From Dyadobacter luteus (GTDB taxonomy: Bacteria > Bacteroidota > Bacteroidia > Cytophagales > Spirosomataceae): a stretch of DNA of 64,000 nucleotides. The stretch covers positions 1-64,000 of the forward strand of contig NZ_QNUL01000017.1 in assembly GCF_003383615.1 (NCBI RefSeq), in the 5' to 3' direction. The notes beneath the pieces are model-generated. The model made no database searches and was not told the DNA's origin. It saw only the letters and a list, made by a program, of their open reading frames with translations. Position numbers and translations under genes: made by a program. Below are positions 2,812 to 51,504 of the stretch, piece by piece; within the stretch, counting starts at the first letter, position 1; every line of letters begins with the position of its first letter.

Positions 2812-4080
2812 TTAAGTTTTGAAAGAAACCGTCATTGTGTGCGCACCATCATAGTGATAGGTGATCGTCACAGCATACATGTCTGTAATAGCCTTCACAA
2901 TGGCCAATCCCAAACCTGTATTGTTTTTATCGGACGAAGACTTTTCAAACCTTTTGAAAATCCGCTCACCGTCCAGTGGCTGAGCTGATCCTGTATTGGT
3001 AATATTGAAAAAATGCCTGTCCACCGCAATTTTCACAGTACCTCCTTCTTTATTATGGATAATGGCGTTGCGCAGCAGATTGGAAAGTAGAACCACAGCC
3101 AGATCCTTCTGCATGTAATAACTGAGTTCTCCTGATTCTTCCACATTCATCTGCACCTCCTTATAATCTGCAAAGTCCCGGAATTCAAGAACAAGCTCTT
3201 TGATAATCATATTAAGACTGACCAGCTCACCTTGTTCAAACTGACGATTTTCAATTTTTGAAAGCAACAGTAAAGATTTGTTCAGGCGCGTCAGTCGTTC
3301 CAGCGTTTGAATCACACGCCCTACCGTTTCCATATCCGGCTCTGTCAATGCCCCTTTTTCTGCCAGCAGCTCCAGTCTGTTAATACTTATAGCGATAGGA
3401 GTCTGTATCTCATGACTGGCATTTTCAATAAATTGTTTCTGGCTATTGAAAGTGTCTGTTGTGTGCCGGGTAAGGGATATCAAAGAATCATTCAATACCT
3501 TAAATTCCTTCACTTCGGTTTTTACCGAGCCGACAGGATTGTTCACGCCCAACCTGAAATCCTTCAATTGCTCCAGCATACTGTAAAATGGCTTCCAGAC
3601 TTTACGTAACAAAAAATTATTAATGATAAGAATACTGCCGATCAGAGCGATATACAGCCAGATCAGTGCATAGAACAAATCCTCAATTAAATCATCCTCC
3701 TCCACCATGGAAGAAATGATTTTGAGTTCATAATATCTGTCATTTTTTTTGAACGCTGTAGTGAGCAGCCGTACAGGCTCCAGATCATTTTCATAAGGCA
3801 TGTACATGAGCGTATCCTTATGCACATCCTTTATTTTCTTTGCATAGCTTTCAGCTACTTCTCGTATCTCATAGTTGCCTTCTGCAAATTCGTTTCGGAA
3901 AAGTATGGTCGAATCCTGACTTGCTTTTTCAATGATGAGCATTTTAAAGTTGTCCAGCCCGTCGTCCAGACTGTCATATACTTCATCCAACATATTTACA
4001 TAAAAGATCACTGCCCATACATTTATGATTCCAAACAGTGCAAATGCCAGATACTTAAGTGTGTAGTTCAGTAAGCTCAT
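2812..4080 (-). CDS. Sensor histidine kinase
   Basis: A 422-residue membrane sensor kinase that would autophosphorylate and pass phosphate to the regulator encoded just upstream. Membrane segments lie near residues 9-30 and 135-157, enclosing a periplasmic sensor of about 105 residues rich in charged residues. The dimerisation helix holds the phospho-acceptor, H223, in NASHEIQTPIA; the usual motif is SHELRTP, so Q replaces R. The catalytic domain has an N box (NLLRNAIIHN) and a G box (NNTGLGLAIVKAI). Its ATG overlaps the stop of the regulator gene (ATGA), which shows translational coupling. The neighbouring barrel and PepSY protein suggest an envelope signal, but the ligand is unknown. Confidence 0.93.
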   Translation of the reverse strand: MSLLNYTLKYLAFALFGIINVWAVIFYVNMLDEVYDSLDDGLDNFKMLIIEKASQDSTILFRNEFAEGNYEIREVAESYAKKIKDVHKDTLMYMPYENDLEPVRLLTTAFKKNDRYYELKIISSMVEEDDLIEDLFYALIWLYIALIGSILIINNFLLRKVWKPFYSMLEQLKDFRLGVNNPVGSVKTEVKEFKVLNDSLISLTRHTTDTFNSQKQFIENASHEIQTPIAISINRLELLAEKGALTEPDMETVGRVIQTLERLTRLNKSLLLLSKIENRQFEQGELVSLNMIIKELVLEFRDFADYKEVQMNVEESGELSYYMQKDLAVVLLSNLLRNAIIHNKEGGTVKIAVDRHFFNITNTGSAQPLDGERIFKRFEKSSSDKNNTGLGLAIVKAITDMYAVTITYHYDGAHTMTVSFKT

Positions 4081-4754
4081 AGCTGTATAAGTTTATACCC
4101 AATGCCATACACTGCCTGCACTTCCACATCGGCACCCTGATCCTTTAGTTTTTTTCGAAGATTTTTGATTTGAGAATAAATGAATTCGTAGTCGTCCGCG
4201 TCTTCCATGTGATCCCCCCACACGTGCTCAGCAAGAGCCGTCCTGGTTACCAGTCTGTTTTTATTGACAAGCATATAGGTCAGGATATCAAATTCTTTCC
4301 GGTTAAGCGCGAGAGAATCCCCGTTCACTGTCAATGTTCGTTCATCAATATCCAGTTTCAGATTCCCCAAAATCATAGTATTGTTTCCCAAAAATGATTT
4401 GCGTCTTAAAACTGATTTAACCCTTGCGGTCAGCTCTGCAATATGAAAAGGTTTGGTCAGGTAGTCATCCGCTCCCAGATTCAAACCGGCGAGTTTATCA
4501 TCCAATGAATCTTTCGCGGATATGATAATCACATTGTCTGATTTGCCAAGCGCTTTCAATTCGGAAAGTAATTCCAGCCCGTTACCACCGGGAAGCATTA
4601 TATCCAACAGAATACAGTCATATTCAAAACCAATAATCTTGTCCAGCGCAGATGTATAATCACCGGCAGACTCTACCACATATTGCTCTATTTCCAGGGA
4701 TTGTCGGATTACATCCTGCAGATCCGCCTCATCTTCAACAATCAGTATTTTCAT
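4077..4754 (-). CDS. OmpR/PhoB-family response regulator
   Basis: A 225-residue two-component regulator. The receiver domain (residues 1-120) has the acidic pocket E7/D8, phospho-acceptor D51 (CILLDIMLPGGNG), S79 and K101 (DYLTKPF). The DNA-binding winged helix (about 128-224) ends in the typical FIYSQIKNLRKKLKDQG and YGIGYKL. It is the first gene of a minus-strand operon with the histidine kinase (4-base overlap), a barrel protein and a PepSY-like protein. The 132 bases upstream, shared with the divergent proline-rich gene, must hold its promoter; I could not identify a convincing box there. Target genes are unknown, but its own operon is the obvious candidate. Confidence 0.94.
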   Translation of the reverse strand: MKILIVEDEADLQDVIRQSLEIEQYVVESAGDYTSALDKIIGFEYDCILLDIMLPGGNGLELLSELKALGKSDNVIIISAKDSLDDKLAGLNLGADDYLTKPFHIAELTARVKSVLRRKSFLGNNTMILGNLKLDIDERTLTVNGDSLALNRKEFDILTYMLVNKNRLVTRTALAEHVWGDHMEDADDYEFIYSQIKNLRKKLKDQGADVEVQAVYGIGYKLIQL

Positions 4755-5538: not shown

Positions 5539-8500
5539 ATGAAAAAACTGCTACTCCCTCTACTCTTAATTTGGGGCTTTGTGTGCGCCAATGCCCAGAA
5601 TTACACCTCAGTTCCTTCCAGAATTGAAGCTGAAGATTACAATGGCATTCATGATGCCGGTACGGAAACTACCGCTGATACAGGTGGCGGAAGTAACATC
5701 GGAAGCATCAATAATGGCAGCTGGATAGACTACAACATTAAGACATCCCAGGCCGGAGGATACACACTCCAACTAAGAGTGGCTAACGGATTCAATGATA
5801 ATGCCGAGGTACATATCAAAAATGCAGATGGCACCAGACTGGCGGGTACCATTGTACCACGTACCGGTGGAATGCAGGCATGGCAGACTATCTCTTTGTT
5901 CGTGACGCTTCCAGCTGGAAATCAAACCATAAGAGTGTATGCACAAAACGGACTTTTCAACCTCAACTGGATCGAATTTGTTGCACCTAAATTACTTACA
6001 GCACGCATTGAAGCAGAAGATTTCAACGCAGCCACCGACGTAAGGCCTGAAACTACTGCAGATACAGGAGGCGGAAGCAATCTGGGATATATTGATGATG
6101 AAGACTGGATGGATTACCACGTAAAAGTGGCTAATTCAGGTGTACATACTTTTTCATTCAGAGTCGCTAATGCGTACGGAAACGGAATTATTCAGATCAG
6201 AAACCAGAACGCAGATGTGTTGGGAAGTGTGAACGTGCCGCAAACAGGAGGATGGCAAACGTATACTACTGTTAGTACTACTGCAACACTTAACGCAGGA
6301 GACCAGGTAATCAGGCTATTCCTGCCAAAAGGAACTTTCAATTTCAACTGGTTCGAAGTTGCAGAGGGAGGACAGGCAGAACAACCTACACAGTCTGTCA
6401 TTACATTTGAAGCAATACCGGCTGTAAAAGTGGGCGGCAATAGCTTCAACCTCTACGCCACAAGTAACAATGCTCTAAGTCCTGTTACATTTACATCTTC
6501 CAACCCTTCGGTAATTGCACTCACAAACAATGCAGGTACATGGATCGCGACAATTCTTGCAGAGGGAAACACAAGCATCACCGCCTCACAGGCAGGCAAC
6601 GGATCATTTACAGAAGCTGAGAATGTGACCAGAAACGTCATTGTTCAGCCCGCTGATCCAACTACGCCTGCAACTTATACACAAATCCCTTCCAGAATTG
6701 AAGCTGAAAATTACAGTGCTATTCACGATGCCGGTACGGAAACTACCGCTGATACAGGTGGCGGAAGTAACATCGGAAGCATCAACAATGGCAGCTGGAT
6801 AGACTACAACATTAAGACATCCCAGGCCGGAGGATACACACTCCAACTAAGAGTGGCTAACGGATTCAACGATAATGCTGAAGTACATATCAAAAATGCT
6901 GAAGGAATAAAGCTGGCAGGTACCATTGTACCACGTACCGGTGGTATGCAGGCATGGCAGACTATCTCTTTGTTCGTGACGCTTCCAGCCGGAAATCAAA
7001 CCATAAGAGTGTATGCACAAAACGGACTTTTCAACCTCAACTGGATCGAATTTGTTGCACCTAAGCTACTTACAGGACGCATTGAAGCAGAAGATTTCAA
7101 CGCAGCCACCGACGTAAGACCTGAAACTACTGCAGATACAGGAGGCGGAAGCAATCTGGGATATATTGATGATGAAGACTGGATGGATTACCACGTAAAA
7201 GTGGCTAATTCAGGTGTACATACTTTTTCATTCAGAGTCGCTAATGCGTACGGAAACGGAATTATTCAGATCAGAAACCAGAACGCAGATGTGTTGGGAA
7301 GTGTGAACGTGCCGCAAACAGGAGGATGGCAAACGTATACTACCGTTAGTACTACTGCAACACTTAATGCAGGAGACCAGATAATCAGGCTATTCATGCC
7401 AAAAGGAACTTTCAATTTCAACTGGTTCGAAGTTGCAGAGGGAGGACAGGCAGAACAACCTACACAGTCTGTCATTACATTTGAAGCAATACCGGCTGTA
7501 AAAGTGGGCGGCAATAGCTTCAACCTCTACGCCACAAGTAACAATGCTCTAAGTCCTGTTACATTTACATCTTCCAACCCTTCGGTAATTGCACTCACAA
7601 ACAATGCAGGTACATGGATCGCGACAATTCTTGCAGAGGGAAACACAAACATCACCGCCTCACAGGCAGGCAACGGATCATTTACAGAAGCTGAGAATGT
7701 GACCAGAAACGTCATTGTTCAGCCTGCTGATCCGGTATCCAATGCTCAGAAAATCACACTTGACCCTAAACGCTGGTATCAGCTAACCAATGCCGCTAAC
7801 GGCCTTGACCAGTTATTTGACGGTAATTTAACTGAGACCTTACAGACAGGATGGGGGAAAGTGATCAGTGAATATGAGGCTTACTATCCCTTACTTGAAG
7901 GAGAAGAAATGACCATTGAAAGTCTGAGGTTTTTTGACCTGGAAGGGTCGAATACTCAAAATCCGGCGAAATTATCCATCATCACCGATCAGTGGGAACG
8001 CATCGAAATTGCAAGATTCACCGGAGACAGATACAATGGATGGGTTGGACCATATCCTGAGCGCAACCTGTCCGGAAATGCCCAGTTCTTACTTGATGCA
8101 CCGGTTGGAAATATCCGCTATCTGATTTGGGATATACGTGGAATTATGCCGACGGAAATGGAAATTTACGGAACCCATACTCCTGCCACTGTAACTCCTT
8201 CACCTGTACCTGCAAAATCTGTTCGTCTGGGCGACATGTTTGGCGTGAATGGCTATGAATGGAATTTCCAGCATGGAGCCAAACCATGGGAAAATGACGA
8301 AAACCTGGTTAATGCTGCTAAAAACTTCAAAGGTTTGAGACACTATCTAGATTGGGAAAAGCTTGAATCAAGTGAGGGTGTATATTCTTTCAATCCGACA
8401 CTTATTGGTGGCTGGCATTACGACCTGATGTACGAACGTTGCAAGCAAGAAAACATAGAAATTCTGGCATGTATCAAAACGCTGCCTGGCTGGATGCTTG

Positions 8501-10014
8501 CAACCTATCCTGAAGGGCATCGCGAAACAGAATTTGTTCCTGTAAAATCTGGCAAAAACTTCGCAGATCCTCTTTCCTACATCGAACAGGCTAAGGTAGC
8601 ATTTCAATTCACCGCGAGATATGGAAGAAATACCTCAGTAGATCCATCTTTGTTAAGCGTATACAGTGAACCAAGATGGCCCGGTGACAATCCCAACACC
8701 ATCAAAATCGGATTGGATCTGGTGAAGTACCTGGAATGTGACAACGAGCGTGACAAATGGTGGAAAGGTCGTATGGGTTATCAGACTGCCCGTGAATACG
8801 CAGCAAACCTCTCTGCATTCTATGATGGACACAAAAATACAATGGGACCTGGCGTAGGCGTTAAAAATGCCGATCCAAGTATGCTTGTAGTTATCGCCGG
8901 ACTTGTTACAGGCCCTGACTATGTAAAAGGAATGGTGGACTGGTGTAAGGAATTCAGAGGTTATAATCCTGACGGCACTGTGAACCTCTGCTGGGATGTC
9001 ATTAATTTTCACCTTTACACCGACAACACCTCTTCCGCTCAAAGCGGAACTTCCACAAGAGGTATGTCAGCAGAAATGACGCCTGCTAATATCATTGTTG
9101 AAGAATTCATGAAAGTAGCTCACGAAATTTGCTACGATATGCCCGTATGGCTTACTGAGACCGGATTCGATGTTCAGCCCAACAGTCCGATTAAAGCCAT
9201 TCCGATCGGAAACAAATCTGCTCTGGAAACGCAGGCAGACTGGACCATCAGAACTTCACTATTCTCAGCCAGAAAAGGAATTGACAAGGTATATTTCTAT
9301 CAGATGTACGACGACAATCCACTGGCTGGAATGTTCGGATCGTCTGGGCTTCTGAACACAGACCAGACCCGCCGACCAGCTGCTGACTACATTGTGCAGA
9401 TCAATAAGCTTTTTGGTAACTATCGTTATAAAGAAACCATTTACAGCGATCCTATTGTGGATCGTTACGAGCTGGACGGCCAATCTCTGTATATTCTCGC
9501 TGTTCCCGACGAGGTGGGAAGAACAGCTGATTACATCCTTAATCTTCCAGGAAGCTCTAAAGCGCAGATATACCGTCCCGTCATAGGTGGTGACGATATG
9601 TCCTTGGAAGAACTTCCCGTAGCTAACGGAAAAGTAAACATTACTGCTACCGAAACACCTATGTTTGTACTTGGAGCAGGCAATCTGAATGCGCGCCGGG
9701 CTCTAATTGATACAGCACTAACGCAACTTACTAACAGCGAAGAAATTATTCCTTTGCAACGTGTTGTGTCTGTTTACCCCAACCCTACTGCCGATTACAT
9801 TACAGTTGATCTTGCGAATACATCGACCGGAAATATAGAACTGCGGATTTTTGATACCGGCACCGGCAGACTGTACAAAAAAGAAACGCTGTCCAAATCA
9901 GAGAATAATTTCAAACAAAAGATCAGCGTTGCTCATTTACCTACCGGCTCCTACATTGTAGAAGTCATTCAGGGACAGGACAGAGCTTTCAGAAAGATCA
10001 TTAAAACACATTAA
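5539..10014 (+). CDS. Secreted multimodular glycoside hydrolase: four CBM6-like modules, clan GH-A-like domain, T9SS tail
   Basis: A 1491-residue secreted protein. The ATG at 5539 begins a signal peptide (MKKLLLPLLLIWGFVCANAQ); the frame opens 69 bases earlier but that extension spoils the signal. Order by approximate residue: CBM6-like module 25-150, second CBM6 152-275, Ig-like 285-370, the same three again to about 730, a discoidin-like domain 735-880, and a TIM-barrel-like catalytic domain 893-1310. The last 80 residues begin VYPNP near 1412 and are a type IX sorting domain (type A), giving export across the outer membrane. WLTETGFD provides a candidate nucleophile, E1207; the likely acid/base is E1044 in VYSEPRWPG. 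The CBM6 modules carry the ligand-face pattern IEAEDY and GGGSN. The sugar target is unknown; the GH family cannot be fixed by eye. Confidence 0.85.
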   Translation: MKKLLLPLLLIWGFVCANAQNYTSVPSRIEAEDYNGIHDAGTETTADTGGGSNIGSINNGSWIDYNIKTSQAGGYTLQLRVANGFNDNAEVHIKNADGTRLAGTIVPRTGGMQAWQTISLFVTLPAGNQTIRVYAQNGLFNLNWIEFVAPKLLTARIEAEDFNAATDVRPETTADTGGGSNLGYIDDEDWMDYHVKVANSGVHTFSFRVANAYGNGIIQIRNQNADVLGSVNVPQTGGWQTYTTVSTTATLNAGDQVIRLFLPKGTFNFNWFEVAEGGQAEQPTQSVITFEAIPAVKVGGNSFNLYATSNNALSPVTFTSSNPSVIALTNNAGTWIATILAEGNTSITASQAGNGSFTEAENVTRNVIVQPADPTTPATYTQIPSRIEAENYSAIHDAGTETTADTGGGSNIGSINNGSWIDYNIKTSQAGGYTLQLRVANGFNDNAEVHIKNAEGIKLAGTIVPRTGGMQAWQTISLFVTLPAGNQTIRVYAQNGLFNLNWIEFVAPKLLTGRIEAEDFNAATDVRPETTADTGGGSNLGYIDDEDWMDYHVKVANSGVHTFSFRVANAYGNGIIQIRNQNADVLGSVNVPQTGGWQTYTTVSTTATLNAGDQIIRLFMPKGTFNFNWFEVAEGGQAEQPTQSVITFEAIPAVKVGGNSFNLYATSNNALSPVTFTSSNPSVIALTNNAGTWIATILAEGNTNITASQAGNGSFTEAENVTRNVIVQPADPVSNAQKITLDPKRWYQLTNAANGLDQLFDGNLTETLQTGWGKVISEYEAYYPLLEGEEMTIESLRFFDLEGSNTQNPAKLSIITDQWERIEIARFTGDRYNGWVGPYPERNLSGNAQFLLDAPVGNIRYLIWDIRGIMPTEMEIYGTHTPATVTPSPVPAKSVRLGDMFGVNGYEWNFQHGAKPWENDENLVNAAKNFKGLRHYLDWEKLESSEGVYSFNPTLIGGWHYDLMYERCKQENIEILACIKTLPGWMLATYPEGHRETEFVPVKSGKNFADPLSYIEQAKVAFQFTARYGRNTSVDPSLLSVYSEPRWPGDNPNTIKIGLDLVKYLECDNERDKWWKGRMGYQTAREYAANLSAFYDGHKNTMGPGVGVKNADPSMLVVIAGLVTGPDYVKGMVDWCKEFRGYNPDGTVNLCWDVINFHLYTDNTSSAQSGTSTRGMSAEMTPANIIVEEFMKVAHEICYDMPVWLTETGFDVQPNSPIKAIPIGNKSALETQADWTIRTSLFSARKGIDKVYFYQMYDDNPLAGMFGSSGLLNTDQTRRPAADYIVQINKLFGNYRYKETIYSDPIVDRYELDGQSLYILAVPDEVGRTADYILNLPGSSKAQIYRPVIGGDDMSLEELPVANGKVNITATETPMFVLGAGNLNARRALIDTALTQLTNSEEIIPLQRVVSVYPNPTADYITVDLANTSTGNIELRIFDTGTGRLYKKETLSKSENNFKQKISVAHLPTGSYIVEVIQGQDRAFRKIIKTH
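5614..6659 (+). repeat. Tandem intragenic duplication, copy 1 (CBM6-CBM6-Ig block)
   Basis: The block recurs at 6688-7733 with a constant offset of 1074 bases (358 codons). Both copies start at ccttccagaattgaagctga and end at ctgatcc. The second CBM6 and the Ig-like parts are almost identical between copies at base level. The first CBM6 holds most differences, for example DGTRLAGT in copy 1 against EGIKLAGT in copy 2. Confidence 0.95.
6688..7733 (+). repeat. Tandem intragenic duplication, copy 2 (CBM6-CBM6-Ig block)
   Basis: Partner of 5614-6659. Mismatches are sparse and many are silent (ctacta/ctacct-type third positions), which suggests either a recent duplication or gene conversion between copies. 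A threonine/proline linker of about nine codons separates the two copies. Confidence 0.95.
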
Positions 10015-15712: not shown

Positions 15713-16300
15713 ATGTCAGAGGAAGAGCAACTGTGGAAAGACTTTACGGGCGGAGATGAGAAAGCGCTGGAGCAGTTGATAAAGCTGTTTGGGAAACCGC
15801 TTGCACTTTATGGCAGGAAACTCATTAAAAATGATTTGCTGATACAGGATTGTATACAGGAAGTATATATTCAGCTCTGGCAATACCGCTCTGGCCTTCG
15901 CCAGCTTACAGAAATACGTCCTTACCTGTTCACCTGCCTTCGCCGGAAAATTATCAATACACTTAAAAAAGAAAGTGTATTTGTTACCAGTGAGCAGGAC
16001 GACGAAGATCCATTTCTTTCGGAATTCTCAATCGAAACACGGCTTATCGAAAATGAAACCGAGGCCGAACGTGTCCGTACAATCAACCATTTCATCAATC
16101 AGCTCCCCCGCAGACAGAAAGAAGCGATATATCTTCGCTTTTATGAGAACATGAGCAATGAGGAAATTGCAGAAGTAATGGGTGTCAAATACCAGACAGC
16201 TACAAATCTTATTCACGAAGCGCTTACCTCCCTCCGCCAGTCGTTCCCGCTGAATTCAATATCAGCCATGCTTTTTTACTTCAAATTTTATTTTTTTTAA
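15713..16300 (+). CDS. ECF-type RNA polymerase sigma factor
   Basis: A 195-residue extracytoplasmic-function sigma factor. Region 2 spans about residues 20-90 with LIQDCIQEVYIQLWQYRSGL and RPYLFTCLRRKIINTLKK for -10 binding; region 4 lies at about 125-180 with LPRRQKEAIYLRFYENMSNE and EIAEVMGVKYQTATNLIHEA, the helix-turn-helix for -35 binding. It is followed by a FecR anti-sigma gene (83 bases), then SusC and SusD. This is the standard Bacteroidota cell-surface signalling layout: SusC binds its glycan, FecR releases the sigma factor, and the uptake genes are induced. It should drive the susC promoter and perhaps its own. Confidence 0.94.
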   Translation: MSEEEQLWKDFTGGDEKALEQLIKLFGKPLALYGRKLIKNDLLIQDCIQEVYIQLWQYRSGLRQLTEIRPYLFTCLRRKIINTLKKESVFVTSEQDDEDPFLSEFSIETRLIENETEAERVRTINHFINQLPRRQKEAIYLRFYENMSNEEIAEVMGVKYQTATNLIHEALTSLRQSFPLNSISAMLFYFKFYFF

Positions 16301-16383
16301 AAATTTCAAAAAAAAATATAATCAAACCAGTATAAACTTTAAGAAGTGTTGCTACTGCTAATAAACGGCAATATTAACATTTC

Positions 16384-17466
16384 ATGATAAACTATTCCCA
16401 TTACAAAGTAACCGACTATTTGTCCGACGAAAGTTTCAGACAATGGGTGCTTGACGGAGGCTTTCGAAATAGCGATACAGCATGGAGTTTATGGCTGTCA
16501 CAAAATCCAGAACCGGCCAAAGAAGCAATGAAAGCCAGAGAAATTGTTCTGGCAAGCATCATCAGAGAAGAACCATTTCCGGACGATTATTTTGAAACGA
16601 TCAGCCGCGAGACAATCAAAGCTGTAAGAGCAGGGCGATCAGGCTATATCAAACCCATTTACTGGCGCGCGGCGGCTGCGGTTGTGCTAATTTCTGCTTT
16701 TGCCGGCTGGTATTTCCTGACAAAACAAACTTCCGGTGATATTCAACCGGAACACTATTCCGCAGTTACCACTAAAACCATACCGGTAAGTATTTATAAA
16801 GAGAACAAAACCAACACGGTTGTACCGGTTGCATTGCCCGATGGAAGCTCCGTATTGCTTCACCCCAAAAGCACTTTGGAATATGAAAAAGAAGCAGGTG
16901 GCAACAGGACGGTGCATCTGACAGGAAAGGCTTTCTTTGAAGTTACAAGAGATCCGTCTTCTCCATTTTTGGTATATACAGGTGAAATGCTGACAAAGGT
17001 TTTGGGCACAAGTTTCACGGTAACCGCCTATTCAGGAGATAAAGATTATTCTGTAGTTGTGAAAACGGGAAAAGTGGCTGTATCAAGTATTTCGGAGCAA
17101 CCGGGCAAAAATGAAACGGTCAATCTTGTACCTAACGAGCAAGTGATCTTCAATAGAGCAAAGTCCGGTTTTAACCGGAAAGATCTGGAAGCACAGGATT
17201 TGCTCAAATATGTTCCTGCCACACCAAGTTCCTATGCTTTTACGGACACGCCTGTTACAGAAATTTTTGAACAGATTGCCAAAGCATATGGATTAAAAAT
17301 AGAACTGAGTGAAGCGCTATTGGACGGTTGCGAATTGACTACCAATCTGACAGACGAGCCCTTATTCGAGAAGCTGAATATCGTATGCAATTCAATCGGC
17401 CCCGGCACCAGCTACATAATTGAAAACGAACACATAAAGGTTATATCAAAAGGATGTAACCAATAA
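16384..17466 (+). CDS. FecR-type anti-sigma factor with DUF4974 domain
   Basis: A 360-residue single-pass inner-membrane anti-sigma factor. The cytosolic N-terminal part (1-90) binds the sigma factor; one membrane segment lies at about 93-112 (IYWRAAAAVVLISAFAGWYF). The periplasmic FecR domain covers about 145-240 with LPDGSSVLLHPKSTLEYEKE and VHLTGKAFFEVTRDPSSPF. A C-terminal DUF4974 (STN-like) domain spans about 283-358, with FTDTPVTEIFEQIAKAYGLK. It relays occupancy from the SusC N-terminal signalling domain to the sigma factor encoded just upstream. Downstream is the susC gene, 194 bases away, which leaves space for its own sigma-dependent promoter. Confidence 0.94.
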   Translation: MINYSHYKVTDYLSDESFRQWVLDGGFRNSDTAWSLWLSQNPEPAKEAMKAREIVLASIIREEPFPDDYFETISRETIKAVRAGRSGYIKPIYWRAAAAVVLISAFAGWYFLTKQTSGDIQPEHYSAVTTKTIPVSIYKENKTNTVVPVALPDGSSVLLHPKSTLEYEKEAGGNRTVHLTGKAFFEVTRDPSSPFLVYTGEMLTKVLGTSFTVTAYSGDKDYSVVVKTGKVAVSSISEQPGKNETVNLVPNEQVIFNRAKSGFNRKDLEAQDLLKYVPATPSSYAFTDTPVTEIFEQIAKAYGLKIELSEALLDGCELTTNLTDEPLFEKLNIVCNSIGPGTSYIIENEHIKVISKGCNQ

Positions 17467-17660
17467 GAATTTCACATTTAAACCTGAATCTATGCTGATA
17501 AATATGTTTTACTCTCCCTGACAGGTCTATAAAAAAGCCGGGCATGTTCGTACCATGACCGGCTGAAATCCCCGACTTGTTTTCGATGCCAAGCTGCTCC
17601 CTTGCCGGGGAGCATGAGGAATGTTTTTGCCTTTTCAAATCACAAAAACCTATTAAATCT

Positions 17661-20600
17661 ATGCAAAAAAATTATAACTATACCAATCTGTGGTTTAGGA
17701 TTATGAAAATTACTACAGTACAGATTTTCATGACATTGCTGTTTTGCGGCGTTTCTTACGCAGGTGCCGCGCAGGAATTGCTTCAGAAACGGCTGCGGAT
17801 ATCCAGGGAAAATACAGAAATGCGTACCGCTCTGGATCAGATCAGCAAGGCTGCTAATGTCAGGATTTCTTTTAATTCAAAACTGATACCAAAAGGACAA
17901 CCTGTAACCTTATACGCCAACGACGAACGTTTGTCGGAGGTGCTCGACAGAATTCTGACACCTTACGGAGTTTCGTACATCATTATGAACAAACAGATCG
18001 TGCTCCGTAAAAACACGGAAAAGGATCAAAGTGAAGTGCTGGATCTTCAGACTGCCCCTTCTATTGACCGGACTATTGCCGGTACTGTCAGGGATGCAGC
18101 CAATGAACCACTCCCCGGGGTAAGCATTGTTGTGAAAGGAACCAGCAGAGGTACCACTACCGGGTTTGATGGCCGGTATTCCATAGAAATTCCCGATAAG
18201 GCAGTGCTCACATTTTCCTATGTAGGTTACGAAACACGCGATGTTGAGATCGGTAACCAATCGGTACTGGACGTTACCCTTACGAATGATAATAAGACAC
18301 TAGAGGAAATTGTAGTAATCGGATACAACCGTGTTAAGAAAAGCGATCTGACAGGTTCAGTAGCCAGTGTAGGCGCTGATGAAATCAAGAAAAGACCGGT
18401 GGCTAACGTACTGCAGGCTATGCAGGGAAGAGCTGCAGGGGTGGATATTACCTCCAATGAACGTCCTGGTGAAATGGGCAGTATACGTATACGGGGTAAC
18501 CGTTCACTCAGTGCGAGTAACTCTCCATTGTATGTTGTGGATGGAATTCCGCTTGCGGCTGGTGGTATTGAATCAATCAATCCCAACGACATTGAGTCGA
18601 TTGATGTTTTGAAAGATGCTTCTGCTACAGCCGTTTTCGGTTCCCGTGGCGCGAATGGGGTCGTTCTTGTAACTACCAAACAAGGTAAAAGCGGAAAGCT
18701 TTCACTGAACTACATCGGTACCACTACGATCGAAAATCAGCATGATCGCACGCAAATGATGAACTCAGCTCAGTATGTTCAGTTCAGAAGAGATGCATTT
18801 CGCCGTGCGGGAAATTATCCTGCTACGCCTACACAGGCTGACGATCAGCGTATTTTCGGAGGAGATTCCTATGCATTGGCCAATATCATGAAAGGCTGGG
18901 AAGGCGGCACCTGGAATGGCGATTTGGTACCGACCACCAACTGGACTGACATGGTGCTTAAAACCGGCGTAACCCAGGATCACACGCTAAGCCTGAGCGG
19001 GGGAACCGACAAAATGAAAGCCTATGGCTCAATTGGCTATTTATTCCAGGATGGTACGCAGCTGGGACAGGACTTCGAACGTTTCAATGCAAAATTCAGC
19101 GTAGAGATGTCTCCTGTGAAATGGTTCAAATTCGGAGGTAGCATCAATGGAACCTTTAGCCTGCAAAACTATGGCTTCGCTTCAAGCAGTGCGTCAGGTG
19201 CAGGTAACCTCTATTTTGCTGCACAAGGTATGCTTCCATTCGCTGTTCCGTTTGATGACAACGGAAACCGCATCAACCTCCCTGGCGGTGACATCAACAT
19301 TTTGAATCCGATTGGTGAAGATAAATACAATATCAACGAAAGAAAGGTATTACGTACGCTAGGTGTATTATTTGCAGAAGTGGATATTTTGAAAGGACTT
19401 AAGTACCGCATGAATTTTGGTCCTGACTTTTACAATCTGCGTAACGGAAGATGGATGGATAAAAACTCTATCAACCGTGGTGGCGGTGAGCCAGGTTCAA
19501 CCAACTACGCTCAGCTTAACCAAACTTCACGTTTCTCTTACACACTGGATAATCTTCTTTACTACGATCGTACTTTCGGAAAACATACAGTGGGTCTAAC
19601 ATTGCTGCAAAGTGCATCTTCCAACCTGACTGAAACCAGTGGAATGACTGCCACTAACCTTCCATGGGACAGCCAGAGATGGCATCAGCTCAATTCTGTG
19701 AGTGCTTTGGATGGTTTTGGAACAGGTTTAAGCCAAACACAGCTACTCTCCTATATGGCTCGTGTCAATTATGGATTTAACGACAAATACATGTTTACTG
19801 CATCGGCTCGCTGGGACGGAGCTTCTCAGCTGGCACCAGGCAACAAATGGGACTTCTTCCCATCAGCGGCATTTGCATGGAATATAGATCAGGAAGAATT
19901 TCTTAAAACAGTTCCATGGGTGAATCAGCTTAAAACCCGTATCGGATTCGGTAGTACAGGTAATGCGGCGATCAGTCCTTATCAAACCAAGGGAGCTGTA
20001 CAAACGCTTTATTATACATGGGGAAACAAGGTTGAAGCAGGTTATGTATCATCTGATCCCTCTTCTCAAAGCCCTACTGCAATGGCTAATGAATTATTAA
20101 GCTGGGAGCACACAGCGCAAGTAAATATCGGTATAGATTTTGATTTATTCCGTCATCGCATAGGTGGAACACTTGACTTATATAAATCGCGTACATCCGG
20201 ACTATTGCTATTACGAAGTGTAAACTCAGTGTTAGGCTATACAACCTCATGGGACAATATCGCCAGTACCTCAAACAAAGGGATAGACTTAACGCTAAAT
20301 ACCATAAATATAAAAACGCGAAAATTTGAGTGGTTGTCAACTGCGAATTTCTCAGCAAATACTGACAAAATAGAACAGCTTGTAAATGGAGATACGGACG
20401 ACCTTAGAAACTTGTGGTTTATTGGTCAAAGACTAGCCGTATATTATGATTACTCTAAGCAGGGAATCTGGCAAAATAGCGAAGCAGACTTGGAAGAAAT
20501 GGCAAAATTCAATGCTAATGGACACAGCTTCAGAGCGGGCGATATCAGAGTAGAGGATTTAAATGGTGATTACCGTATCGACGCTAACAATGATAGAAAG

Positions 20601-21062
20601 ATTGTAGGGAATTCAAGTCCTAAATTCACATTCGGATTCAACAATACGTTTACATACAAAAACTGGGATCTGGCTGTATTTATGTTCGGACGCCTTGGAT
20701 TTACAGTAGCAAGAGGGGCAGAATCCCTTCAAGGACGTTTTTCTCAACGCGTTGTTGACTATTGGACACCAGAGAATCCAACTAATGATTATCCTTCTCC
20801 AAATTACAATTCAGCAGCAGGTGATCCTTTCAAAAGTGCAATGAACTATCAGGATGGGTCATTTGTCAAAATCCGTAATATTTCACTGGGTTACAATGTT
20901 CCAGCAAACATTGCCGGAAAACTGCGCATGAGCAACTTCCGTGTCTACGCACAAATCCAGAATCCCGGTCTGATCTATTCAAACATATCCTGGCTGGATC
21001 CTGATCTTGGGGGTTCTACCTTCAACCGCGGATTTGTATTTGGTTTGAACATTGGTTTCTGA
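17661..21062 (+). CDS. SusC/RagA-family TonB-dependent outer-membrane transporter
   Basis: A 1133-residue TonB-dependent transporter. The ATG at 17661 is preferred over the frame start 28 codons earlier, though MKITTVQIFMTLLFCGVSYA (from 17703) marks the signal peptide core. Domains: an STN signalling domain (about residues 45-115, LRISRENTEMRTALDQISKA), a carboxypeptidase-like barrel (about 130-210, GTVRDAANEPLPGVSIVVKG), a plug with LEEIVVIGY and DVLKDASATAVFGSRGANGV, and a 22-strand barrel ending FNRGFVFGLNIGF. The STN domain matches the FecR neighbour for sigma signalling. With SusD it should import an oligosaccharide. The stretch near 20080-20640 is AT-richer than the rest and uses rarer codons. 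Confidence 0.95.
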   Translation: MQKNYNYTNLWFRIMKITTVQIFMTLLFCGVSYAGAAQELLQKRLRISRENTEMRTALDQISKAANVRISFNSKLIPKGQPVTLYANDERLSEVLDRILTPYGVSYIIMNKQIVLRKNTEKDQSEVLDLQTAPSIDRTIAGTVRDAANEPLPGVSIVVKGTSRGTTTGFDGRYSIEIPDKAVLTFSYVGYETRDVEIGNQSVLDVTLTNDNKTLEEIVVIGYNRVKKSDLTGSVASVGADEIKKRPVANVLQAMQGRAAGVDITSNERPGEMGSIRIRGNRSLSASNSPLYVVDGIPLAAGGIESINPNDIESIDVLKDASATAVFGSRGANGVVLVTTKQGKSGKLSLNYIGTTTIENQHDRTQMMNSAQYVQFRRDAFRRAGNYPATPTQADDQRIFGGDSYALANIMKGWEGGTWNGDLVPTTNWTDMVLKTGVTQDHTLSLSGGTDKMKAYGSIGYLFQDGTQLGQDFERFNAKFSVEMSPVKWFKFGGSINGTFSLQNYGFASSSASGAGNLYFAAQGMLPFAVPFDDNGNRINLPGGDINILNPIGEDKYNINERKVLRTLGVLFAEVDILKGLKYRMNFGPDFYNLRNGRWMDKNSINRGGGEPGSTNYAQLNQTSRFSYTLDNLLYYDRTFGKHTVGLTLLQSASSNLTETSGMTATNLPWDSQRWHQLNSVSALDGFGTGLSQTQLLSYMARVNYGFNDKYMFTASARWDGASQLAPGNKWDFFPSAAFAWNIDQEEFLKTVPWVNQLKTRIGFGSTGNAAISPYQTKGAVQTLYYTWGNKVEAGYVSSDPSSQSPTAMANELLSWEHTAQVNIGIDFDLFRHRIGGTLDLYKSRTSGLLLLRSVNSVLGYTTSWDNIASTSNKGIDLTLNTINIKTRKFEWLSTANFSANTDKIEQLVNGDTDDLRNLWFIGQRLAVYYDYSKQGIWQNSEADLEEMAKFNANGHSFRAGDIRVEDLNGDYRIDANNDRKIVGNSSPKFTFGFNNTFTYKNWDLAVFMFGRLGFTVARGAESLQGRFSQRVVDYWTPENPTNDYPSPNYNSAAGDPFKSAMNYQDGSFVKIRNISLGYNVPANIAGKLRMSNFRVYAQIQNPGLIYSNISWLDPDLGGSTFNRGFVFGLNIGF

Positions 21063-21098
21063 TAAATCCTTTTTGAAACACTTTAAGATAGAATTTTT

Positions 21099-23072
21099 AT
21101 GAATCATATAAAGTCGATATTTAACAAAGTTTGCATGGGAACTCTTTTACTGACAGCGCCGTCTGCCTGCAAGGAAAGCTTCCTGGATGAAGATCTGATC
21201 ACGGCAAGAAGTACCCAGGATTTTGAAACCCCAAACGGATTGGACGGACTCGTAACAGGAATGTACCAAAGTCTCCGTTTCCACTTCAACTACGAATGGG
21301 CCTATGCTACCACTAATTATGGCACTGATGAATTTGCTGTGGGTGGCGACCGCACCATGCAGATGTGGAATTCGTACGATGCAAACCTGAACTCCCTGAC
21401 CGGAGATGTAGGATCTGTTTGGGATAATATGTATGGTGTTATTAACTCTGCCAATATCGTCATCCAGAATGTACCGGTTTACTACGGCGATGGTACCAAC
21501 AAAAATATCCGTCTTGGTGAAGGATATTTCATGCGTGGCTTCAATTATTTCAAATTAGTGAAGCAATATGGTGGCGTTCCGCTGAAGCTGGAACCATCGA
21601 CAAGGGTAGAATCTGAGTTCTCACGTAACACTGCACAAGAGGTATATACGCATCTCATCAGTGACCTTGAAAAAGCTTATGAGCTACTTCCCGCAGCTCC
21701 CGCCGAAACGGGAAGAATTACAAAATGGGCAGCTGCTCACTTCCTGGCCAAGGCTTACCTTTACAGAGCCAGCGAACTGTATAGCGACTGGAACAGTAGC
21801 AGCCGTCAATCAGATCTGGAGAATGCGGTCAAATATGCCAATCTGGTTATTGATAGTGGATCCCATAGCCTTGCTCCTAATTTCAGTGATTTATGGAACT
21901 ACACTGCTACTGATGGCGCTTCTGAAAGATTACCGGAAATTATTCTTTCAGCTCAATTTTCAGGCAACACCGCCACACAAGGCCGTTATGGAAATCAAGT
22001 TCACTTGTACTATCCGTCTGTATATCAGAATCTGGCAGGTATGCAACGTGATATCCCGGGAGGACGTGAATTCCAGCGTTTGCGTTCTACAGATTACGCT
22101 CTTGATGTATATGACAGAGTGAACGACAGTCGTTTCTGGAAAAGCTTTAAAACAGTATATCTTTCTAACCGTCCTGCAGCTGCACCGGTCTGGACCGCTG
22201 CGAATGCACCAAGCGCTGATCTTGTAGGCAAGCCAAGATTTGCAGGTGGAGAGCAGTCTATCCTGTACATTGTCAATAAAGCAGGTGACACACGTTATAC
22301 ATCCGAGAATATCCAGCGCCGTGCTCCCCACATGTTCGTAAGATATTTCTCAGGCCAGGCTGAAAATATGTTGGGAGGACATGGTAACTATGAGGCAAGC
22401 CGTTTCGTGGCACTTTCCAAATTTGCCGACGGATCACGTATTTCTGTAGCAACACAATTTGGCCAGCGCGATGGCATTCTTGCACGTCTGGCAGAAACCT
22501 ACCTGATTGCAGCAGAAGCTTACGGACGTCTTCAGCAATATCCCCAGGCTTTGGCATATATCAACAAAGTACGTGACCGTGCCGCATACAAGTCAGGCGA
22601 AGATCGTACAGCTTATGTGGACGGAGGTGTAGCATACAAAAACAATGTAGCCGCCAATACAGCTGCATTTGTATCTTATTCTGACAAAAACACTTACTAT
22701 GAGTCCAATAACGTTGCGACCACCACAGCCAGTTCTCTTGATGGATTGCACCTGACAAGCATCAATGACATTTTCAATTCTACGACTGAGTTTTATACCA
22801 AAGTAGGTGCTTCTACAAACGAAAGTAAATTCATCCATTTCATACTGAATGAGCGTTCACGCGAATTGATGGGAGAACTGATGCGCTGGGAAGATCTTGC
22901 ACGTACTAAAACTTTGGTGTCACGCGCTTTGGTTTTCAATGATGAGGCCAAACCAAGTGAAGCCAAACATTACCTGCGGCCAATTCCACAAACCTTCCTT
23001 GATGCCATTCAAAAAAGTGGCAGACCGCTTACAACTGATGAAAAAACTGCTATGCAAAATCCGGGTTGGTAG
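21099..23072 (+). CDS. SusD/RagB-family glycan-binding lipoprotein
   Basis: A 657-residue surface lipoprotein that caps the SusC barrel and captures glycan. Family features are present: C24 followed by KESFLDED, a TPR-like alpha-helical core (GEGYFMRGFNYFKLVKQYGG; RLAETYLIAAEAYGRLQQYP), and the C-terminal RSRELMGELMRWEDLARTK. The length is above the common 500-600. The lipobox, TAPSAC, has P at position -3, which is unusual; the rest of the leader (MNHIKSIFNKVCMGTLLLTA) is ordinary. It starts 36 bases after susC, so they form one transcript, ended by a hairpin at 23087-23125. No glycosidase lies in the same operon; the ligand is unknown. Confidence 0.95.
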   Translation: MNHIKSIFNKVCMGTLLLTAPSACKESFLDEDLITARSTQDFETPNGLDGLVTGMYQSLRFHFNYEWAYATTNYGTDEFAVGGDRTMQMWNSYDANLNSLTGDVGSVWDNMYGVINSANIVIQNVPVYYGDGTNKNIRLGEGYFMRGFNYFKLVKQYGGVPLKLEPSTRVESEFSRNTAQEVYTHLISDLEKAYELLPAAPAETGRITKWAAAHFLAKAYLYRASELYSDWNSSSRQSDLENAVKYANLVIDSGSHSLAPNFSDLWNYTATDGASERLPEIILSAQFSGNTATQGRYGNQVHLYYPSVYQNLAGMQRDIPGGREFQRLRSTDYALDVYDRVNDSRFWKSFKTVYLSNRPAAAPVWTAANAPSADLVGKPRFAGGEQSILYIVNKAGDTRYTSENIQRRAPHMFVRYFSGQAENMLGGHGNYEASRFVALSKFADGSRISVATQFGQRDGILARLAETYLIAAEAYGRLQQYPQALAYINKVRDRAAYKSGEDRTAYVDGGVAYKNNVAANTAAFVSYSDKNTYYESNNVATTTASSLDGLHLTSINDIFNSTTEFYTKVGASTNESKFIHFILNERSRELMGELMRWEDLARTKTLVSRALVFNDEAKPSEAKHYLRPIPQTFLDAIQKSGRPLTTDEKTAMQNPGW

Positions 23073-44090: not shown

Positions 44091-47000
44091 ATGAAAAAGG
44101 TATTGAAAGTATTGGCGGTCATTCTCCTGACGATATTGATTCTGATAGGTGTCCTTATATGGGGTATACAAACTCCGGCGGGACAAAATTTCCTGACCGA
44201 CCAGGCCAATTCATACCTCAGAAAAAAACTCAAAACCAAGCTGAATATTGAAAAGGTACGGTTTGACGTACCGGATTGGATAATGCTGGAAGGTGTATAT
44301 TTTGCTGACCAGAAAGGTGATACACTACTCTACGGAAAAAGACTCTACGTTGATATAGATATGTACAGCCTGATTAAAGGCAATGTGGGTATCAATAAGG
44401 TAGAATTGGAAGGAATAAACGCCAACATTTACCGCACACTTCCCGACACCGTTTTCAATTTTCAGTTTATTGCAGATGCTTTTGCAGGCTCGGATGAGCC
44501 CACTCCTGTAGACACCACATCCAAACCGATGGAAATGCGGTTAGACAGAATTTCCCTCAAAGATGTCCGTCTTTCTTATCGGGATGCTGTTATTGGTACG
44601 GATGCTGAAGCTAAAATTGACTCTGCCTCTGTACAATTCGACAAGTTCAATCCTTCCTTATCACAGTATCACCCGACCAAGGTTACTTTGCTGAACAGCG
44701 GCGCTAAGCTAAGAATGTACGCTGCTCTGAAAACAGATACAACATCTGCCCCATCCAATCCGGCTGATTCGCTGGATCTTAAATTGGGAGATATTGATAT
44801 CCGTCAGTTCGACTGGGTATTTACCGATGAGACTTCAGGTTTAAAAAATGGTGTGACCGTTGGCAAACTGGAAGGGAAAATCAACAAAATTTATATGGGT
44901 AGCCAGCATGTTGATATAGACAAGATCAATCTGGAAAACATGACTGCTTATGCTGAATTTGCCAAAAAGGCGACAAGTGGTGCTAAGAAAGTAGGAAATG
45001 AAATTGACAAAGCAACTACCACTCCGGAAGAGGTTGCCAAAAAGCCGGATGCCAAAGCAGAGGATGTTCCAGGCTGGAATGTCAAAGTAGGCAGCATTAA
45101 TCTTGTAAATAACAATCTCCGTTACGACGACTTTAATTCCCCTCAAATACCAAAGGGACTTGACTATTCACACTTGGATATTAAAAATCTGAACATTGAT
45201 TTACAGGAATTCATTTTCTCTCCTGAAAATATTGCCGGTGCTTTAAAATCAGCATCATTCAGAGATAAAAGCGGATTCAGAATTGATGAATTCAGAACCA
45301 ATTTCGCTTATGGCAACGAACAGACCTACCTGAAAAATCTGTTGCTCAGAACACCCAATACAACACTCCGCGATGAGCTTGTTTTAAGATACAGCAATCT
45401 GGAACAGCTTACTAACGACATAGCCAAAGTTAAAATCCGCCTGAGACTTACAGACAGCCGTGTTGCCTTTGCTGATTTGCTCATGCTTGTTCCCGACCTG
45501 GCAACTACTCCACCTTTCAACAAAGAGCCTAACGGCGTTCTGAAAGGCAGCGGACTGGTAACCGGTTCGGTAGATGATATGCTCATTTCAAAAGCCAGGT
45601 TCAGTATGCTGAACGGTACAGTGCTCAGTCTCGACGGGCGTATACAAGGATTGCCCGATGCCGAAAAACTGTCCATGAATATGAATATCGGCGAGTTGTC
45701 ATCAACAAAACAGGATTTGCTGAAAATGCTTCCCGACAGCGCGTTACCGTCATCTATAGAACTCCCTGAGCAAATTAAAATCTCCGGGAAAATAAATGGC
45801 TCTATGGCCAACCTGAGCCTGAATACGACGATCAATACCTCTTTTGGTACCGGAACTTTTGCAGGAAACCTGAAAAATATTACTGATAGTATTAAAGCTG
45901 AATACGACGGTACGCTTAGTTTCCAGGAATTTGATCTTGGAAAATTGATGAAGCAGCCGCCTGAACAAATGGGGAAACTCACGCTCACTACCGACCTGAA
46001 TGGTGTTGGCTATGACCCGAAAACTATGATGGCAAATGTTAACGGAACCATTCAGAGTGCTGACCTTAATGGATACGTTTATAAAAACCTGACCTTAAAG
46101 GGAAATATAGACAAAGGAATGGCGGGTGTTTCTGCCAAAATGGATGATCAGAATATCAAGGTAAGTGTAGACGGACAAGCCGATTTATCCAAAGAATTTC
46201 CGTCTGTTAAAGGTGATGTTAATATCAATCACCTGGATCTGACCGCCCTGAACCTTTATGCTGATTCATTGCAAATCAAGGGTGACATTAAAGTAGACAT
46301 GCCATCCACCAATCCAGAAAATCCATTGGGTACGGTGAATATTGCTGACCTTGTACTGACCCATCATGGTAAACCTGTAGGAGTTTCGGACATTAACATG
46401 AGCCTTACTGATTCCAGCGGTGAGCGCCAGGCTATTATTGATTCTCCGTTCCTGAAAGCGAAAATGGAGGGCGAATTTGTTTATACTGAACTTGCAGATG
46501 TCCTTTTCACTGAAATTGGTAAGAATTTCAAAGCTCCTGATCTCACCTACAATGAGGTTACAAAACCTACCAATTTTACGCTGGACGCTACTGTGACCAA
46601 CCACCCGGTTTTCAAGATTGTAGCACCAAAGCTTACCGAACTGAATCCTATTCGTTTCCAGGCCAAAGTAGATAACCAGCAGGATTCATCAATAGTAGCG
46701 ACATTGAATATTCCGGTTGTAGAATTTGACAGTATCCGTACGGAAAGGATCAACGTCAAGTTCAGCAATCTTCAGCAAAATGCTGTGTTGAACTCTACAA
46801 TCGGCCTGGTTAATACAGGTGGCTTCCGCATGCAAAATGCTTCACTGGAAAGTGATATTGTAAACAATGATATCAAGTTTGATTTTACAGTAAGGGATTC
46901 AGCGCTCGTGGAGCAGCATGCATTAAAAGGGGACCTTCTTCTGGCAGACAATAAATACCGGCTCAACCTTCGTGATAACCTGCTACTGAATTACCGCAAT

Positions 47001-49070: not shown

Positions 49071-51504
49071 TATAGTAGCCTTCTTTGTGATTTGCATTGC
49101 GTTGAGCAGCTGCTCGGTTCAGAAGTATGTACCGGAGGGGCAAAGTCTCTATGTAGGAAATAATGTAAAAGTACAACCTGATACCCTTACAAAACCTGAT
49201 GTTTCCGGCCTGGCAAGCGGGCTTGAATCGATCATTAAACCCACTCCCAACAAAACACTGTTTGGTTTCCCATGGAAGGTTTGGTTTCATTATTTTATTG
49301 GCGAACCCAAAGATGAAGGAGGACTAAAAAGCTGGTTCAGAAAGAAACTAGGCGAACCGCCGGTATTTGCTACGCAACGTTTACTTGATATCAATGCGGC
49401 CAATATGGTTGGCTACATGGATAATGAAGGCTACTACCGTTCATCGGCAAAAGGCAAACTTAAAGAATCAAAGAAAAAACGTACTGCCATCGCCGAATAC
49501 CAGGCTTATGTAATGCCGAGATATGTTATTAACCAGGTTAATTATGTGGTACCCGACAGCTCTACATTTAATAAAAACCTCGTTCTGACAGCAAAAAAAA
49601 CATACTTACGTAAAGGAGACCCGATCAGGCTGGATGTAGTAACCGCAGAACGTACCCGTATTGACCAGGATCTGAAAGGAAAAGGCTACTATTATTTCAA
49701 TCCTGATTATCTCATTGCAAAAGTCGATTCGACGATTGGAAAGCAGGACTCTACATTAGGACCTCAGCAGGTGAATATTTATCTGGAAGTAAAAAAAGAA
49801 ACTGCCCAGACAGCCCTGAAACAATATTACATCAACAACATTTTTGTCAATACCGGAACGAAAGAAACCGCGACAACGGATAGCATGGCGATAAGACAGC
49901 CGCTTCGCAGAGGTATCAACGTGACAGATCCGGGCAGGTTATACAAAAGAAGAATTTTTTATGACGCCATTGGTTTCAGGAAAGGAGATATGTATACCAA
50001 CATCATGCATGATGTGTCGGTGAGAAGGCTGGTTAATTTTCAGAATTTCAAATTTGTCAAAAACACTTTTGAGCTTGTCCCACGATCCGACTCCGCATTA
50101 CTGGATGTGCGTTACGATCTGGCTCCGATGAAGAAAAAATCGTTACAGACCACAATAAGTGCCAGCACGAAATCCAATAACCTGGGCGGGATGGAACTGT
50201 CTCTAAACTGGAAAAACCGCAATTTCTTCAAAGGTGCTGAAATTCTCAGCCTGAGTGCCTACTACGGTTTTGACTTACAGTTGGGTGGAAACAGGGTTGA
50301 AAATCCTAATCGCGTAGGTAACGAATTTATCAGGTATGGTGCGCAGGCTAGCTTATCTTTTCCTCGTTTTGTAATTCCTTTTTCCAGAATACGGCCTGAA
50401 AAAAGTAATATTTTACCCAAAACCATATTGGCTTTAAATTATGAGAATAGGATTCAGAAGGGGTTTTTCAAATCGACTTCTATCCGTGCGGACTGGTCTT
50501 ATGTCTGGAGTAAAAATTCAAAACTGGAGCATACTCTCACGCCTATTGCTATCAATTATGTAATTCCGAGTAATGTAAATATAGAGCTACTGGGAAAAAT
50601 CGCTGAAGTGTTACCAGCCTTGGAAGTTGAGAGATATTATCAATTGGTAGACCAGAATTTCTTTATTCTGGGCTCAAATTACAATATCACTTTTCGGCCT
50701 TCTACAAGACCATTCAGTAAAAATCAGTTTGTATTAATTGGAGGATTAGACTGGGGAGGTAATTTACTTAGCCTACTTGGAAAAAAGGACTCCACAGATC
50801 TTACTGGTGCGAAAAGTTTTTTGGGCGCCCCTATTCTCCAGTTTGCCAAGTTTGACGGTGAAGTACGTTATTACAGAACTATTAATTCCAGAGTGAAATG
50901 GGCTAACCGCTTTGTGGCTGGTGTTGGTATTCCCTATGGAAATTCAAGGAACGATCAGCTACCCCAATTCAAACAATACTTTGGTGGTGGTAGCGTAGGT
51001 TTACGCGCATTTAGGGCACGCGCTTTAGGACCTGGTGCTTATAATGCAGACACGACATCAGTTAGCCTATTAGGATATAACTCATTTGGGGATATTCGCC
51101 TCGAGTTTAATTCAGAGGTGAGAATGAAATTTACGGATATTATTAATGGTGCCGTCTTCGTGGATGCAGGTAACATTTGGTCCTACAATGAGAATACCGG
51201 TAAAGGTTATGGGCCTGAATCAGTATTTAATAAAAATACTTTCCTCAAACAAGTCGCTGTTGGTGGAGGTATCGGGCTTCGTCTGGATTTCTCCTTCCTG
51301 ATATTCCGTCTGGATCTGGCCACCCCATTCAGGAAACCTTGGTATACTGTCACACCTGTAGAAACAGATCCGGACGCACCATTCGATCCGGATGCACCTG
51401 TTGTTTATAAAAATCCGTGGGTGTTTAAAGAAATCAACTTCGGAAGCAGAGCCTGGAGAAAAGAGAATTTAGTATTGAATATTGCGGTGGGTCTGCCCTT
51501 CTAA
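49060..51504 (+). CDS. tamL: TamL, lipoprotein BamA/TamA-like outer-membrane protein
   Basis: An 814-residue outer-membrane barrel lipoprotein, the Bacteroidota counterpart of TamA. The ATG at 49060 is used (MRISIVAFFVICIALSSC; lipobox LSSC), overlapping the tamB stop by 11 bases; the in-frame GTG at 49036 would add eight residues and weaken the signal. POTRA-like repeats occupy about 30-390 and the Omp85 barrel about 400-814. The barrel shows the lid-loop region QFKQYFGGGSVGLRAFRARA (GLRAF for the VRGF motif) and ends RKENLVLNIAVGLPF, closing with a terminal aromatic. It acts with TamB. It is the last gene of this transcript and convergent with mce. Confidence 0.93.
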   Translation: MRISIVAFFVICIALSSCSVQKYVPEGQSLYVGNNVKVQPDTLTKPDVSGLASGLESIIKPTPNKTLFGFPWKVWFHYFIGEPKDEGGLKSWFRKKLGEPPVFATQRLLDINAANMVGYMDNEGYYRSSAKGKLKESKKKRTAIAEYQAYVMPRYVINQVNYVVPDSSTFNKNLVLTAKKTYLRKGDPIRLDVVTAERTRIDQDLKGKGYYYFNPDYLIAKVDSTIGKQDSTLGPQQVNIYLEVKKETAQTALKQYYINNIFVNTGTKETATTDSMAIRQPLRRGINVTDPGRLYKRRIFYDAIGFRKGDMYTNIMHDVSVRRLVNFQNFKFVKNTFELVPRSDSALLDVRYDLAPMKKKSLQTTISASTKSNNLGGMELSLNWKNRNFFKGAEILSLSAYYGFDLQLGGNRVENPNRVGNEFIRYGAQASLSFPRFVIPFSRIRPEKSNILPKTILALNYENRIQKGFFKSTSIRADWSYVWSKNSKLEHTLTPIAINYVIPSNVNIELLGKIAEVLPALEVERYYQLVDQNFFILGSNYNITFRPSTRPFSKNQFVLIGGLDWGGNLLSLLGKKDSTDLTGAKSFLGAPILQFAKFDGEVRYYRTINSRVKWANRFVAGVGIPYGNSRNDQLPQFKQYFGGGSVGLRAFRARALGPGAYNADTTSVSLLGYNSFGDIRLEFNSEVRMKFTDIINGAVFVDAGNIWSYNENTGKGYGPESVFNKNTFLKQVAVGGGIGLRLDFSFLIFRLDLATPFRKPWYTVTPVETDPDAPFDPDAPVVYKNPWVFKEINFGSRAWRKENLVLNIAVGLPF

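Follow-up and report, generated by a model that had tools for sequence, protein, structure and literature searches.

How did the N-terminal arm of a secreted glycoside hydrolase in Dyadobacter luteus come to be present twice within a single gene, and what would the second copy contribute to the enzyme? The gene lies near the start of the window, the stretch of 64,000 nucleotides that was analysed, and an earlier note made from the letters of the DNA had described it as a hydrolase with a T9SS tail and a near-identical internal duplication. Tandem CBMs are common, and repeat number tunes adhesins. We consider it probable that the gene encodes a T9SS-exported glycoside hydrolase whose N-terminal arm, consisting of a CBM6-A, a CBM6-B and an Ig unit, was doubled in tandem within the gene in the D. 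luteus lineage itself. The component features are as follows.

5539–10014, + strand: whole gene, multidomain glycoside hydrolase with T9SS tail, 1491 aa from ATG (open reading frame, Pfam, NCBIfam, orthologues)
5539–5598, + strand: probable signal peptide, MKKLLLPLLLIWGFVCANAQ (sequence read by eye)
5599–6660, + strand: repeat block 1, A-B-Ig (1074 offset to block 2, 96.5% identity)
5605–5988, + strand: CBM6 unit A1, clamp positions Ser/Met, Trp39 kept, in CmCBM6-2 numbers (Pfam, own-unit profiles, site mapping)
6004–6372, + strand: CBM6 unit B1, Tyr/Trp/Asn site kept (Pfam, own-unit profiles, site mapping)
6388–6672, + strand: Ig-like beta domain 1 (own-unit profiles, weak Big_2, structure model)
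6673–7734, + strand: repeat block 2, A-B-Ig (alignment to block 1)
6679–7062, + strand: CBM6 unit A2, clamp positions Ser/Met, Trp39 kept (Pfam, own-unit profiles, site mapping)
7078–7446, + strand: CBM6 unit B2, Tyr/Trp/Asn site kept (Pfam, own-unit profiles, site mapping)
7462–7746, + strand: Ig-like beta domain 2 (own-unit profiles; the structure model covers copy 1)
7759–8193, + strand: domain D, about 145 aa, beta-rich in the model (own-unit profiles, model)
8209–9438, + strand: GH39/PslG-like catalytic domain, then a small beta domain (fold matches, invariant Glu1070 and Glu1207)
9775–10011, + strand: T9SS type A C-terminal sorting domain (TIGR04183, 37.3 bits, cut-off 23; PF18962, 44.7 bits, cut-off 27)

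Profiles built from the protein's own units give the domain order A-B-Ig-A-B-Ig-D-GH-T9SS tail, in which the labels A and B denote the best-scoring profile rather than tested groups. A TTG upstream, at 5470, is also listed as a start of this open reading frame. The CBM6 name holds by score and by fold: PF03422 matches four stretches (E 1.2e-99; cut-off 28.9 bits), each of the four units scores 89–97.7 bits by itself, and CBM_35_2, which is also above its own cut-off on the protein, has 152.3 bits against 329.8 for CBM6. The Ig name draws on the predicted all-beta fold of the corresponding stretch in the structure model, whereas its support by sequence is weak, the match to Big_2 (14.5 bits) lying below the cut-off of 22.8. 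Domain D has no Pfam match at E values up to 1. The T9SS tail is confirmed by two models above their cut-offs, and T9SS machinery is represented in the genome by GldM (415.9 bits, over 180) and by four Peptidase_C25 matches that are candidates for PorU.

In a self-comparison of the window, 5599–6660 and 6673–7734 align without gaps at an offset of exactly 1074 bases, or 358 codons, with 37 mismatches in 1062 bases, and blastn recovers the same pair of blocks (97.2% over 1046 bases, E 0). Given that E value and 96.5% identity over such a length, a chance origin of the repeat is ruled out. The longest identical run between the blocks is 252 bases. The duplication described in the earlier note is thus confirmed, down to its codon offset, and so is its remark that the second halves are nearly identical while the first CBM6 units differ more: the mismatches number 24/384 in CBM6-A, 5/369 in CBM6-B and 3/273 in the Ig-like unit. 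Counted by position, 28 of 402 bases differ in 5599–6000 compared with 9 of 660 in 6001–6660 (Fisher p 2.6e-6), and the densest 51 bases hold 11 mismatches, a clustering equalled in 2 of 20000 random placements. Two diverged patches account for this pattern within A, at 5599–5652 (12/54) and 5794–5871 (12/78), with a single mismatch in the 141 bases between them; their synonymous divergence is 0.49 and 0.64, respectively, both rough values from short stretches. Compared between the two blocks, synonymous sites have diverged by 0.227 in A, by 0.037 in B and by 0.014 in Ig plus linker, and synonymous codon changes likewise concentrate in A (14/134 versus 5/220 in B and Ig; Fisher p 0.0013, or 0.0055 without the first 54 bases). 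At the protein level the copies are 94% (A), 98% (B) and 96% (Ig) identical.

The junction between the blocks contains no clear short repeat, and a look for a recombination site there gave only two 6-base words. Tandem Repeats Finder, which handles periods up to 500, reports nothing in the gene, and the window has no Rfam match at gathering score. On either side of the array lie two similar stretches, the signal-peptide end (5590–5606) and the linker before D (7741–7757), which by eye share 13 of 17 bases, and the linker between the blocks is unlike this pair; the likeness is perhaps due to chance, or perhaps a trace of the duplication event.

Two close relatives, designated G036 and G045, carry a single A-B-Ig block in open frames of 1132 and 1147 aa. 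In quick trees of the units, the copies in D. luteus form sister pairs (support of 100 for A1/A2, 99 for B1/B2 and 97 for Ig1/Ig2), and the single-copy units of these relatives branch next for A and B; the trees were made with short searches on few columns, from 92 CBM6 rows of 25 chosen proteins and, with six more proteins, 34 Ig rows. Both marks of a tandem internal duplication, sister copies and a single block in relatives, are therefore present. Across 73 proteins with units aligned end to end, the most similar pair inside one protein reaches 98% in D. luteus; the figure is 89% for Spirosoma terrae, and the genus members next in rank reach 75%. CBM6 pairs of one type are 39–70% alike in those other proteins of the genus that were compared unit by unit. 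Because the copies are sisters and other pairs in the genus are far less alike, the doubling belongs to the D. luteus lineage, and, judged by sequence, its two copies are the most recent pair among those compared. The proposal of a recent duplication is supported to this extent, “recent” meaning relative to G036, whose D and GH domains are 81% alike to those of D. luteus, in a comparison that includes a single strain of the species. In the tree of D and GH, the fork of D. luteus, G023 (A-B-A-B) and G036 with G045 (A-B) is left without resolution, with the ancestral number of units unsure.

Unequal recombination would have produced the second block. If a single duplication had been followed by drift alone, synonymous divergence should be the same in A, B and Ig, and so the uneven values point to later gene conversion or other recombination, which lends indirect support to that part of the original suggestion. 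Exchange between the copies might have evened out B and Ig while leaving A more diverged; alternatively, short diverged stretches might have been imported into the first A unit. Homogenised B and Ig, or diverged stretches brought into A1, both fit the data.

The import of parts of A1 from a diverged allele of another strain, which is compatible with the duplication itself, is unlikely but a real possibility. It would explain why the differences are clustered, why the A1 branch is longer than that of A2 (0.05 versus 0.008), and why block 2 agrees with G036 at codons 5599, 5608, 5635, 5641 and 5644 where block 1 differs. In the second patch and beyond, however, agreement with G036 and G045 is mixed between the blocks, and a donor was not found: the genome has no other close copy by DNA and, by protein, just a 43-residue stretch at 43%. 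Three further CBM6 places detected there by the CBM6 profile are distant. A different reading of the same two patches, with their high synonymous divergence on either side of a nearly unchanged interval, is that they display the true age of an old two-block form whose B and Ig units have been kept alike by recurrent gene conversion. This shares its conversion step with the preferred explanation, and we regard it as rather unlikely. The order A-B-Ig-A-B-Ig does recur in a far relative, the 1492-aa protein of a Cytophagaceae bacterium (SCN 52-12 MAG; L113), but its blocks are merely 54/57/46% alike in A/B/Ig, in contrast to the near-identical blocks of D. luteus, and its units stand apart from those of D. 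luteus in the trees, of which the Ig tree is weak at that point. L113 is probably an older, separate duplication. An old two-block form is also at odds with the single Ig found in 47 of the 48 genus genomes, D. luteus alone having two.

The earlier note had also cautioned that the assembly might have collapsed or expanded copies. The assembly, a draft of 6.95 Mb, comprises 59 contigs, and identical runs of up to 252 bases could mislead a short-read assembler. False expansion is unlikely, since the copies differ at 37 sites, and with an intact frame and an estimated contamination of 0.02 the second block does not look assembler-made; what stands of the concern is a possible collapse of a third, identical copy. 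An incorrect copy number in the draft is, overall, very unlikely.

With the catalytic part as query, an orthologue was recovered from each of the 48 Dyadobacter genomes searched, D. luteus included, and orthologues in Dyadobacter, Spirosoma, Larkinella and Runella share the same core of D, GH and T9SS tail and the same CBM6 types, assembled into arrays such as A-B, A-B-A-B, B-A-B-A-B and A-B-B. Among the 48 genomes, A-B-A-B occurs in 26 (that of G026 being taken from locus L102), B-A-B-A-B in 7, A-B-B in 6, A-B in 4 and A-B-B-B-B in 2, while B-A-B, A-B-B-B and the A-B-Ig-A-B-Ig of D. luteus are found once each. The proteins accordingly contain two CBM6 units in 4 genomes, three in 7, four in 28 and five in 9. 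On a quick tree of D and GH (53 rows, 52 of them labelled and five from outside the genus, with G026 left out), the number of units changes at least 10 times and the form of the array at least 14 times. Changes in both directions are suggested. In Dyadobacter sp. LHD-138 (G042), the A unit of a two-unit array joins A1, and its B unit joins B3, of five-unit relatives, which suggests a contraction by deletion between repeats; a separate expansion of units is suggested in Spirosoma. Genomes G036, G045, G023 and G042 appear to correspond to loci L082, L080, L081 and L092, respectively. Plasmid records gave 23 matches, all below 60% identity and none covering 80% of the protein.

The canonical CBM6 site, as defined in CmCBM6-2 (1uxz), has an aromatic clamp formed by Tyr33 and Trp92. 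This clamp is present in B1 and B2, which retain Tyr33, Trp92 and Asn121, and absent in A1 and A2, which carry Ser and Met at positions 33 and 92 and keep Trp39. The model of block 1 (pLDDT 92.9) has a beta-sandwich fold that matches 1w9s with Z 21.7 and 1uxz with Z 20.9; over the modules CmCBM6-2, BH0236 (1w9s), ZgLamC (5fui) and CBM6E (8j3y), Z ranges from 20.5 to 21.7 and identity from 30 to 38%. Residues 33, 92 and 39 of CmCBM6-2 are, we assume, the counterparts of the clamp aromatics and the concave-face Trp of ZgLamC. In ZgLamC the variable loop site is clamped by a pair of aromatics and the concave face site is marked by a Trp, and CBM6E is itself without the clamp, having Ile and Val (PMC10956234). 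Loss of the clamp therefore need not mean loss of function, and binding by the A units may use the concave-face Trp, or these units may be spacers. Across the genus, with the G026 sequence partial, position 33 lacks an aromatic or His in 7 of the 81 A units; the same holds for 26 of the 104 B units, the single B of G036 being one of them.

With the clamp kept in B and missing from A, the second block brings the arm one canonical CBM6 and one altered CBM6. The description of the array as a four-CBM fibre-like anchor ahead of the catalytic domain consequently stands in part: four CBM6 folds are present, N-terminal to that domain, but both A units lack the canonical clamp, and the roughly 145 residues of domain D intervene. 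As to the ligand, the top fold matches include CBM6 modules from enzymes for beta-1,3-glucan and mixed-linkage glucan, and xylan-type CBM6 modules follow closely. The best chain by sequence, for A and B alike, is 8zvk (AaBgIC in the record), followed by the 2y8k group (an arabinoxylanase by title) for A and CmCBM6-2 for B. These matches give a weak hint of a beta-glycan ligand.

The catalytic domain, to judge from its model, seems to be distantly related to GH39 and PslG. The model of D and GH, built from 50 sequences, has a mean pLDDT of 89.7, and the nearest solved fold to the GH part is a Bacteroides cellulosilyticus GH39 enzyme (5jvk; VIA-align Z 31.1, 371 aligned, rmsd 2.8), followed by PslG of Pseudomonas aeruginosa (5bx9, 4zn2 and 9g17; Z 29.5–29.6) and then by GH30 entries at Z 24.5 and below; the first four rows in Foldseek are the same 5jvk and PslG entries. 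The D. luteus enzyme has in common with these proteins a catalytic barrel and a small beta domain, but identity is just 16–19%, and domain D, the CBM6 array and the T9SS tail are additions of its own. For a solved catalytic relative, a sequence search returned no match at E values up to 1, and a profile search returned 5jvk at E 0.0068 together with two weaker chains. Pfam GH39 (PF01229) scores 19.1 bits, below its cut-off of 26, and matches 8 of 18 relatives at E values up to 10, with 6.3e-07 the best, and 17 of the 18 have a weak GH42 match (best 2.1e-05); for these reasons the domain is called GH39-like rather than filed as GH39.

Asn1069-Glu1070 and Glu1207 are invariant in the 50 sequences (codons 8746–8748 for Glu1070 and 9157–9159 for Glu1207). 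Glu165 serves as acid/base and Glu276 as nucleophile in PslG (PMC11912335), and the positions of Glu1070 and Glu1207 would fit these respective roles. The Glu of a YSEPRW motif was considered as the acid/base and rejected, aligned relatives having Thr or Val at this position and the invariant residue being instead Glu1070, in CDNERD. Among the titles and beginnings of abstracts listed, no assay of the catalytic domain was found, nor any work on the enzyme or its variation in unit number. Held at the surface, the enzyme would cut a beta-glycan, the best guess for its substrate being a beta-glucan or a glucose-containing extracellular polysaccharide. The doubled arm, by adding a second canonical B-type and a second A-type unit, could increase retention on the polymer.

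Upstream of the enzyme gene, and divergent from it across a gap of 784 bases, are genes for a histidine kinase and an OmpR-type response regulator (2812–4754, − strand). The pair is also seen at loci L081, L082, L100 and L101, and the regulator at L105 too; conceivably, it might control the enzyme gene. In 54 named loci of 80, the AraC-type gene is a neighbour in 21, the response regulator in 5 and the kinase in 4, counted over flanks of about 5 kb or less, such that misses are partly out of reach. The nearest SusC/SusD pair seen in the window starts at 17.6 kb. It falls within 15713–23072 (+ strand), where a sigma factor, a FecR-type anti-sigma factor, a SusC-like and a SusD-like protein are encoded one after another, as is typical of a surface-signalling and uptake cluster. 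Elsewhere in the window, at 44091–51504 (+ strand), a TamB-like gene (1659 aa) overlaps an Omp85 gene.

A tandem-CBM enzyme with an internal duplication is already known in kind and is a fairly ordinary case; the more interesting part, of moderate interest, is that unit number varies genus-wide in a core gene. With the enzyme in every one of the 48 genomes and its unit number so often altered, natural variants with 2 to 5 units are available for testing the benefit of extra CBMs, and the doubled block offers one canonical and one altered CBM6 per copy. A broader idea, which the comparative analysis leads us to put forward tentatively and which we hold to be doubtful, is that the CBM6 arm behaves as a recombination-driven accordion, its units expanding, contracting and homogenising between species inside one conserved frame and thereby tuning the hold on a polymer, in analogy to adhesins. 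If so, the D. luteus gene would be the freshest step in this process, and the polymer would possibly be a matrix polysaccharide of the cell itself or of a neighbour.
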